A stretch of 42,028 nt of DNA from assembly GCA_005223085.1 (NCBI GenBank), contig NJBP01000011.1, forward strand, positions 1 to 42,028, in the 5' to 3' direction. This DNA comes from Candidatus Aerophobetes bacterium Ae_b3b. GTDB taxonomy: Bacteria > Aerophobota > Aerophobia > Aerophobales > AE-B3A. Under the pieces are notes generated by a model. The model searched no databases. It saw only the letters and a program-made list of their open reading frames with translations, and had not been told where the DNA came from. Positions 12,532-15,323 of the stretch are shown in pieces (position 1 is the first letter of the stretch; the number at the start of each line of letters is the position of its first letter). The translations under genes and the position numbers were made by a program.

Positions 12532-12773
12532 CTAGCTTTCATCGTATAAAGCCTCTCTTCCAATCTTTCCGTAACCCGTTTGGGCTTTTTTCTTAGCCTT
12601 ATATTCTTCCGAAAAATGGGCTGTGATATTTCGTTCCCTTTTTAGCCTTTTTTCTAATTCAGTGATCTTTTCATTTAGATAAGAAATATCCGGGTCTCCT
12701 ATTATGATAAGGTCTATATCATAAGTAAATCTTGTCTGATTTTTGATTTTGCAATACACAGACTTTCTAGCAC
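12532..12773 (-). pseudogene. HTH-nucleotidyltransferase gene with internal deletion
   Basis: A good promoter and an AAGGAG site lead into a GTG start at 12773 reading MLESLCIAKSKIRQDLL, which resembles the first residues of small winged-helix proteins fused to a nucleotidyltransferase. That frame stops after 19 codons. In another frame the gene continues as YDIDLIIIGDPDISYLNEKI and KRERNITAHFSEEYKAKK, the DIDL metal-binding strand and following region of the MNT/KNTase-like fold. The GSxARG motif and most of the winged helix are missing. So the gene seems to have lost its middle and is now dead, though its promoter is intact. The 88-residue open frame here is unlikely to be a functional protein. 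Confidence 0.6.
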
Positions 12774-12797
12774 AATCAAAACTCCTTTTGGAATACA

Positions 12798-12826
12798 ATT
12801 GTACTCAATTTAGCGTACAATGTCAA
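12798..12826 (-). promoter_or_regulatory. Promoter of the HTH-nucleotidyltransferase remnant
   Basis: On the minus strand TTGACA (12826-12821) and TACAAT (12803-12798) are 17 bases apart, just upstream of the AAGGAG site (12787-12782). Confidence 0.6.
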
Positions 12827-13066: not shown

Positions 13067-13101
13067 TTGCCTGTATTATAGAAAAATGATACAATTGTCA
13101 T
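13067..13101. promoter_or_regulatory. Overlapping opposed promoters between endonuclease gene and short transcript
   Basis: Plus strand: TTGCCT (13067-13072), 17 bases, TACAAT (13090-13095), reading into the endonuclease gene. Minus strand: ATGACA (13101-13096), 15 bases, TATAAT (13080-13075), reading into the terminated unit ending near 12842. The two promoters interlock, and the palindrome ACAATTGT (13091-13098) covers the plus -10 and the minus -35. Polymerase should not occupy both at once, so the two transcripts probably compete. The minus promoter's 15-base spacing is short, so it is the weaker call. Confidence 0.5.
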
Positions 13102-13917: not shown

Positions 13918-15261
13918 CTATTCTGCCACAAAAAGAAGTTCTTGAGATTCACCATTATTACTCAACACATATTTATAGTTTTTTCTGTTCAATTCTATCA
14001 CTTTAGCTTTGTACTTCTTCAATAGACTCATCAAGTCAGCATCTGAAGGTATCCCATCAGAACGATAAGACACCACTAATATGCTATCTGCAAACTTCTT
14101 GAAAAGTGTATCAAAGGCTTGATAAATCTTATTTTTATCGTTCCAAATGGATTTTCCGTGTTTAATTCGAAGGTGTTTACTTTTCCAATCAATTAGTGTC
14201 TCCCATTTGTTATATTTAACAAGTCCTTCCAAAAAATGATAAAACTCAAGATAGTCAACCCCGACGCCCTTTGAGGAAATATAGGGAGTATCAATATAAA
14301 CTAAATCATATTTGCCCTTGACATTAAAAGCATCGGTACAAAATGCTTTATTCTTTTGCCCGTTGTCAAAAATACTCTCATTTGCTTGCTCGACAAATCT
14401 AACGAAGTGCACGGGAAAAGGAGTATCCCAGGTTATTTTATTCCCAAAACTCCTTTTAACCTTTGCTGTCCTCATATATAGGTTCTTACGATGGAAAAGA
14501 TTATAAGGCCTCTTTATGACACAAGATTGAAACAAGGCGAAATATGCGATCGCTTTTTTGTATATGTTTGTTATTAAAGTGTCTATGTTTGTGACAACCA
14601 CATCCAGCCATTCATTTTCCTCATCAGTGAAATATATTCCTTTAAATGTTTCTTGAATAAAAGTTGGGTACTTCATTTCAGGATGTCGTTTCAAGATTTC
14701 TTCTACATCTTCTTGCGTCAATGTTTCTCTTGAATTTTCTATCAAGGCTAAACCAATGTAGTAATTAGACTTTAAATAGTCGTTATAAAAAACCTGTTTG
14801 CCCCTGGTTTTAAATAGATAACTTACACAAGCAGTCCCTCCGAATGCATCCAAAACAGAATTAAAATCTAGATGCTTACAATTTTGCCAGATCCACTCTA
14901 CCAACTTGAGTTTGCTCCCTTGAAATCTAGTTGATGGGAACTGAAAAGTTATAGGTGGATACTCCGGTTCAAAAGTAGGCAAGGTTAATTGACGGTATTG
15001 CGCCGAAGGTTCTTTGATTAGTAATTCTCTACCTTTCCTTAATTGTTGCTTTATAACACTCAACGGTAGATATTCTTTTTTCAGTTTCTGAATCTCCAAT
15101 ATTGTCTCAAGGGTCTTGTTGGAGAAAAGCCGATAGCCAGAACCTATCACCTTTTCAGGCTTGATCAATTTAAGGTTCAAATAATGATTAAGGGTACTTA
15201 TAGGAAGTTCTGCCTTTTTCGATAACTGGCCAATTCGATATAATTTGTTGTTCATGGGCAT
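13918..15261 (-). CDS. D12-class DNA adenine methyltransferase with N-terminal MerR-type HTH
   Basis: A 447-residue protein with two parts. Residues 7-75 form a MerR-type winged helix (YRIGQLSKKAELPISTLNHYLN, SGYRLFSNKTLETI, LPLSVIKQQL). Residues 105-447 are a D12-class N6-adenine methyltransferase: motif X RFQGSKLKLVEW (112-123), AdoMet motif I DAFGGTACVSYLF (138-150), Y-NDY (159-162), and catalytic motif IV as DTPY (324-327) rather than DPPY. It should protect the sites cut by the convergent EcoRV-type enzyme. It is much longer than M.EcoRV (about 300 residues) and shows no obvious colinear match with it. The HTH head probably regulates its own promoter, where an inverted repeat is seen. 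ATG 15261 or 15255 are both possible; neither has a strong ribosome site. Confidence 0.9.
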   Translation of the reverse strand: MPMNNKLYRIGQLSKKAELPISTLNHYLNLKLIKPEKVIGSGYRLFSNKTLETILEIQKLKKEYLPLSVIKQQLRKGRELLIKEPSAQYRQLTLPTFEPEYPPITFQFPSTRFQGSKLKLVEWIWQNCKHLDFNSVLDAFGGTACVSYLFKTRGKQVFYNDYLKSNYYIGLALIENSRETLTQEDVEEILKRHPEMKYPTFIQETFKGIYFTDEENEWLDVVVTNIDTLITNIYKKAIAYFALFQSCVIKRPYNLFHRKNLYMRTAKVKRSFGNKITWDTPFPVHFVRFVEQANESIFDNGQKNKAFCTDAFNVKGKYDLVYIDTPYISSKGVGVDYLEFYHFLEGLVKYNKWETLIDWKSKHLRIKHGKSIWNDKNKIYQAFDTLFKKFADSILVVSYRSDGIPSDADLMSLLKKYKAKVIELNRKNYKYVLSNNGESQELLFVAE

Positions 15262-15273
15262 TGCTCAAGAGCA

Positions 15274-15300
15274 TAAAGTGTTACTTCGTACTTCACTTTA
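15274..15300. promoter_or_regulatory. Inverted repeat, candidate MerR-type operator
   Basis: TAAAGTG (15274-15280), 13 bases, then CACTTTA (15294-15300) is a perfect 7-bp inverted repeat. It covers the proposed -10 box and ends 13 bases before the methyltransferase start. The spacer holds a direct repeat TACTTC. It is the natural binding site for the HTH head of the encoded protein. Confidence 0.6.
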
Positions 15301-15323
15301 AATGAAGATCTATTCTTTGTCAA
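15295..15323 (-). promoter_or_regulatory. Promoter of the MerR-methyltransferase gene
   Basis: On the minus strand TTGACA (15323-15318) and TAAAGT (15300-15295) are 17 bases apart. The weak -10 box lies within one arm of the inverted repeat. Confidence 0.5.

Follow-up and report, generated by a model that had tools for sequence, protein, structure and literature searches.

A MerR-headed D12-class adenine methyltransferase convergent with an EcoRV-family endonuclease: a probable repressor of its own promoter

Introduction

It has long been asked how a restriction-modification (R-M) system that enters a new cell ensures that protection comes before attack, and the answers so far are mainly XRE-type C proteins and a handful of self-repressing cytosine methylases. 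Self-regulating type II methylases include M.SsoII/M.Ecl18kI, M.EcoRII, M.MspI, M.ScrFIA and M1.LlaJI (PMC3978073, PMC6100179). In M.SsoII, an N-terminal helix-turn-helix (HTH) on a flexible linker lets the methylase repress its own gene; the enzyme binds a palindrome at the M promoter, and operator binding and methylation are mutually exclusive (PMC6100179, PMC3978073). Its regulatory domain has been modelled on the phage 434 repressor (PMC3978073).

The locus described here lies in a stretch of 42,028 nucleotides from Candidatus Aerophobetes bacterium Ae_b3b (the window). It is an EcoRV-type system in which the roles of methylase and regulator seem to be combined in a single protein. In the literature searched (subscription journals and REBASE were outside its scope), this head and this enzyme class are not described together, and no paper on MerR-methylase or LexA-methylase fusions was found.

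Results

The fusion methyltransferase

The initial annotation read the methylase gene (M) as a MerR winged helix fused to a complete D12 methyltransferase and proposed a domain search as a check. Both domains score above their Pfam cut-offs: MerR_1 (PF13411) covers residues 7-74 (E 6.5e-12, 45.8 bits against a cut-off of 21.6) and MethyltransfD12 (PF02086) covers residues 112-330 (E 8.5e-13, 49.1 bits against 22). The D12 match spans just 189 of the 253 profile positions. Headless homologues of 350-365 aa align with residues 104-447, up to the C-terminus, and the domain is therefore complete. In an alignment of 22 type-B methylases, motifs X, I and IV of M stand in alpha order (TRFQGSK, DAFGGT and DTPY), with motif IV reading DTPY rather than DPPY, as it does in nearly all headless relatives aligned. 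By profile, motifs and fold, M is a D12-class adenine methyltransferase with predicted N6-adenine activity.

Table 1. Features of the window locus and LexA-headed methylases of other genomes.
Feature	Location	Strand	Basis or remarks
M gene, MerR-D12 fusion methyltransferase, 447 aa	13918..15261	-	Pfam; L017 homologue
MerR-type winged-helix head, residues 7-75	15037..15243	-	PF13411; CadR-DNA and GlnR-DNA fold match
Linker, residues 79-105, predicted disordered, poorly conserved	14947..15027	-	pLDDT; L017 identity
D12-class adenine methyltransferase domain, residues 104-447, TRFQGSKLK/DAFGGT/IDTPY	13921..14952	-	PF02086; alignment; Dam fold
R gene, EcoRV-family restriction endonuclease, 261 aa	13131..13916	+	PF09233; PDB EcoRV; alignment
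M promoter-like site, TTGACA-17-TAAAGT	15295..15323	-	region's best-scoring site; consensus match only
Candidate operator, dyad TAAAGTG-N13-CACTTTA	15274..15300	.	dyad search; related L017 promoter/dyad
R promoter-like site, TTGCCT-17 nt-TACAAT, TG before it	13067..13095	+	consensus match only
LexA-headed methylase	L052 5737-7506	-	window-type D12; EcoRV-family partner
LexA-headed methylase	L081 1135-2856	-	window-type D12; EcoRV-family partner
LexA-headed methylase	L263 2892-4586	+	tandem with another gene
LexA-headed methylase	L264 1599-3191	-	LexA search
LexA-headed methylase	L265 2674-4236	+	MamI-like partner nuclease
LexA-headed methylase	L266 2208-3752	+	HindIII-like partner nuclease
LexA-headed methylase	L267 1624-3183	+	334-aa gene, visible start closely like that of L265
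LexA-headed methylase	L268 2410-4311	+	BsaWI-like partner nuclease

An AlphaFold2 model built with a 22-sequence alignment (mean pLDDT 79.7) predicts two folded parts, a winged helix (residues 7-78) and a Dam-like domain, joined by a disordered linker (residues 79-105, pLDDT <50). Foldseek matches the head to the DNA-bound MerR-family protein CadR (1.3 A over 68 residues) and to GlnR-DNA (1.4 A over 73 residues, TM 0.78 of the target); its match for the body is E. coli Dam. The VIA-align list consists mostly of methyltransferase folds and barely tests the head. The NCBIfam models nearest to the head are ZntR-, FtsR- and HspR-type MerR proteins, all far below their cut-offs. On the Pfam and Foldseek matches, the head is a MerR-family DNA-binding domain for which DNA binding is predicted. 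The Pfam scores, the headless alignment and the predicted fold bear out the reading of M as a fusion, and residues 7-75 do score as a MerR domain. A canonical MerR regulator was rejected as a description of the head: in the predicted structure a helix (residues 67-78) is followed by the disordered linker and then by the methylase, and the long dimerisation helix and C-terminal effector domain are missing after the HTH.

The same fusion, in the same gene order, is present in a WOR-3 (Caldifarciminota) genome (L017), where the MerR head matches PF13411 with E 2.5e-14. The two proteins are 66% identical overall, with 55% identity in the head, 72% in the D12 part and 18% in the linker (residues 76-103). 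The existence of this same-headed protein in another genome rules out a sequencing or frame artefact.

Partner endonuclease and origin of the locus

The gene beside M, which the initial annotation had not described, encodes an endonuclease (R). Its product matches PF09233 (E 1.4e-77, 260.9 bits against a curated cut-off of 25) and EcoRV in the PDB (E 8.7e-38), and in alignment with EcoRV it keeps the PD-(D/E)XK catalytic residues (YPD...DIK) and the GSGNT recognition loop (GSGNTANI). R is, judged by these matches, an EcoRV-family type II endonuclease, and the recognition site of the system is probably GATATC or a relative. Avoidance of EcoRV sites by the host was considered and gave no signal, GATATC occurring at 0.88 of expectation in 350 kb and ranking 15th of 64 palindromes.

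R and M are tail to tail with their ends 1 bp apart, and no terminator-like site was found between them. A profile search, with a small profile that may miss a divergent C protein, found no C-like ORF at the window or L017 locus; the same profile detected C genes in other EcoRV systems. With no C-like ORF detected at the window locus by this small profile, a C-protein-controlled system having an XRE C gene upstream of R was rejected.

The GC content of the R and M genes together is 34%, compared with 43% in a host genome sample of 20 stretches (350 kb of host DNA), and no relatives of M were found in the other genomes of the phylum that were searched. These two features suggest that the R-M pair was acquired horizontally. 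Beside the pair, an 88-aa ORF (12532-12798, minus strand) shows weak, sub-threshold similarity to AbiEii/MNT nucleotidyltransferases and may be what is left of a gene at the border of the acquired segment.

Promoters and a candidate operator

Promoter-consensus sites are not above chance in the region (4 found, 8.5 expected). The initial annotation had predicted a dyad upstream of M, and one was located over the -10 box of the M promoter-like site, its left arm in M sense being the -10 hexamer TAAAGT itself. The AAAGT-N15-ACTTT pattern occurs once in the window against 0.05 expected. Within its 150-bp context the inverted repeat is matched by 25 of 100 shuffles, which is not significant, so that the window dyad proves nothing by itself.

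The L017 locus has a perfect 11-bp inverted repeat, CTATAAAGTAT-N6-ATACTTTATAG, directly before the start codon of M; none of 100 shuffles equals it, and its core, AAAGT...ACTTT, is that of the window dyad. The upstream regions of the two M genes also have in common ACTTTTTTC, a TTGACA-like box and an ACTTTAT arm. Their similarity is above that of 1,999 of 2,000 dinucleotide shuffles and of 4,007 of 4,011 other, unrelated host 100-mers. The outer half-sites are spaced 25 bp apart in the window and 20 bp in L017. Taking a weaker internal half-site, GAAGT, would remove this difference, on account of which the operator boundaries are provisional. Near the R promoter, neither the M dyad nor an M-operator-like site was found.

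Distribution among EcoRV-family systems

An EcoRV-family profile scan of one genome per species yielded at least 571 relatives, the best 80 of which were read; with 20 viral and 8 plasmid or phage loci, about 110 loci were covered in all. Their nucleases pair in roughly equal numbers with two methylase types. One is M.EcoRV/Dam-like and about 300 aa long. The other, to which M belongs, is about 360 aa long, carries DTPY, and is the partner of about half of the sampled EcoRV-family nucleases; M was accordingly rejected as an M.EcoRV orthologue. The window-type D12 domain is nearest to the C-terminal D12 half of AlwI-family double methylases.

Window-type methylases are nearly always headless in the sampled EcoRV-family systems. 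Sorted by gene order, the systems with this methylase type comprise 47 in tandem, four convergent ones and a single R-M fusion (L039). All four convergent systems (window, L017, L052 and L081) have a regulator head, MerR in two and LexA in two, compared with none recognised in the complete tandem systems (Fisher p 5e-6, but with effectively two independent origins). Phylogenetic reconstruction groups the window with L017 with full support (100/99), separate from the LexA-headed pair. The wider proposal of a regulator in all EcoRV-type systems whose R and M are transcribed separately did not hold: the small C profile matched nothing in several systems that have M.EcoRV-type methylases in convergent or divergent order, although one of these, L104, has an XRE-like ORF that the profile overlooked.

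The window and L017 fusions are the only two of the MerR-D12 kind among the approximately 110 EcoRV-family loci and about 1,250 genomes; a profile search of the latter, in five phyla, found no others, and viral contigs held no MerR-D12 relatives by P0001 or by the two-member profile. The N-terminal extensions of three other methylases (L026, L059 and L019) are without a Pfam domain. Two unusual single-frame proteins were also seen. L039 (1200-3107, plus strand) joins an EcoRV-family endonuclease and a window-type D12 methylase in one 635-aa protein, and L034 (3351-5750, plus strand) joins a glutamyl-tRNA synthetase and an EcoRV-family endonuclease in one 799-aa frame, a putative fusion or an assembly artefact.

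LexA-headed methylases

The heads of L052 and L081 contain the winged helix, S24 peptidase, AAG cleavage site, and Ser and Lys residues of LexA, and free-standing LexA is also present in both genomes. A LexA search of 362 Patescibacteria gave six LexA-methylase fusions beyond these two (L263-L268), on D12 or N6_N4 methylases. Eight Patescibacteria methylases thus have a complete LexA head, two on the window's D12 type and six on other methylases, and seven of the eight genes lie tail to tail with the gene next to them (Table 1).

The eight 100-bp regions upstream of these genes contain 11 TTCGA/TCGAA sequences against 2.2 expected (0 of 1,000 shuffles), an enrichment that would be expected if the head reads its own promoter. 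L052 and L265 have a nearly identical promoter with two TTCGA half-sites, despite different methylases and nucleases, which suggests that regulator head and operator travel as a unit. SOS control of R-M by LexA-headed methylases is possible.

A further fusion, L269 (1877-3688, plus strand), joins a RadC-like protein (UPF0758_N and RadC JAB domains by Pfam) to a D12 methylase, and L270 (2028-3842, minus strand) has nearly the same N-terminal sequence. Each adjoins a gene resembling that beside L263.

Discussion

The window locus is probably a type II R-M system that combines an EcoRV-family endonuclease with a D12 methylase not of the M.EcoRV type, whose MerR-type head represses its own promoter. 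On entry, M would be transcribed from its TTGACA-17-TAAAGT site and host sites would be methylated. Once these were saturated, free M, paired on DNA, would use its head to bind the dyad that overlaps the -10 box and would bring its own transcription down to a maintenance level, which would also avoid over-methylation of invading DNA. M.SsoII serves as the analogy here: when methylation sites have run out, free M would be expected to repress its own gene. The early, strong transcription of M would run antisense through R and delay it, as is possible because the genes are tail to tail, 1 bp apart, with no terminator-like site found; autorepression would then end the antisense transcription and release R. 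DNA binding, repression, dimerisation on DNA and antisense coupling are all predicted steps of this scheme.

Autorepression of M is the best reading, with a logic like that of M.SsoII and a different head and methylase. Counted in its favour are the domains and their fold, the endonuclease partner, the L017 match, the lack of a detected C-like ORF, the promoter with its dyad and its likeness to that of L017, the association of regulator heads with convergent order, the TTCGA repeats at the promoters of LexA-headed methylases, and the M.SsoII precedent. Counted against it are the performance of the window dyad against shuffles, the half-site spacing, the failure to find an M-operator-like site near R, the promoter count and the restriction to two examples. 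The missing long dimerisation helix and effector domain also count against a model in which M pairs on the dyad.

The head could instead serve as an accessory DNA-binding module, anchoring the methylase or directing it to its targets, for instance by raising affinity or processivity at methylation sites. Its DNA-binding type and its N-terminal position on a flexible linker would suit such a role, as would the candidate status of the operator. Dozens of close headless methylases have the same partner type, however, so that target recognition is unlikely to depend on the head; the head is conserved where the linker is not, and promoter DNA is common to the window and L017. An accessory role is, on balance, unlikely. 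Classical MerR proteins are promoter activators, and a head of this family might likewise untwist the M or R promoter upon a signal. The spacers of MerR-activated promoters are 19-20 bp, whereas that of the M promoter-like site is 17 bp, which needs no untwisting. The dyad covers the -10 box and beyond instead of lying within the spacer, no effector domain is present, and a similar site was not seen at R, all of which makes activation quite improbable. That the fusion is a passive relic, the end of a MerR gene joined to M and tolerated without function, would fit the finding of only two cases, but the head and its fold are kept at 55% identity while the D12 part has 72% and the linker 18%, and the same gene order occurs in two phyla; this explanation has very little probability.

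Eight LexA-headed methylases besides the MerR fusion make the recruitment of regulator heads to type II methylases a recurrent event. A broader and more tentative proposal, which we hold somewhat less probable than its opposite, is that type II methylases of little-studied phyla have repeatedly gained interchangeable heads (MerR or self-cleaving LexA), mostly where M and R are tail to tail, that these heads repress their own genes, and that LexA could tie the methylase level to DNA damage through RecA-driven self-cleavage. If M is indeed both methylase and regulator, the regulator head is shown to be a swappable part. Its LexA-headed relatives would couple restriction-modification to the SOS response without an intermediary.

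The comparison with XRE-headed methylases made in the initial annotation is a fair one, the well-studied self-regulating methylases being C5-cytosine enzymes such as M.SsoII (PMC3978073). M resembles M.SsoII in the N-terminal head on a flexible linker, and the M.SsoII group as a whole in the proposed repression of its own gene by the methylase. It differs from that group of C5-cytosine methylases in its MerR head, its D12 N6-adenine class and its convergent R, and is known from sequence; an SsoII-like class defined by a C5-cytosine methylase with an XRE-like head does not include it. The EcoRV system itself (L012) has a homologous endonuclease (about 37% identity). There, a separate XRE-type HTH gene precedes R, which agrees with the separate C protein noted for EcoRV in the initial annotation, and M, which is of the M.EcoRV/Dam-like type, stands in divergent orientation. 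In the window, no C gene was found, M is convergent and of the other D12 type, and the regulator head is on M. Regulator and R-M enzyme are also united in CR.NsoJS138I, a C-REase fusion reported to be active in both roles (PMC3850674); in that protein an XRE C protein is joined to the endonuclease, whereas in the window a MerR head is joined to the methylase.

In the genomes and literature searched, the fusion is neither common nor already characterised: two cases were found, and no paper describing them. The principle is less isolated than the initial annotation implied, given an HTH-like head on plasmid-borne AlwI-family D12 methylases. The MerR-D12 fusion is a rare variant of the self-regulating methylases, more interesting for the class it opens than as a single case. 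The AlwI-family double D12 methylases of Staphylococcus, Lactococcus and Enterococcus plasmids contain, in their C-terminal half, the nearest plasmid relative of the window D12 domain, and the S. aureus enzyme, like M, starts with an HTH-like stretch. They differ from M in having two D12 domains, an AlwI-family (type IIS-like) partner and a head that is weakly HTH-like and under every Pfam cut-off. In the S. aureus plasmid protein (L006 3510-5642, plus strand) the N-terminal stretch is about 55 residues long and MerR-like by eye. Lactococcus and Enterococcus plasmids commonly carry full-length relatives of this protein, with 54-56% identity.
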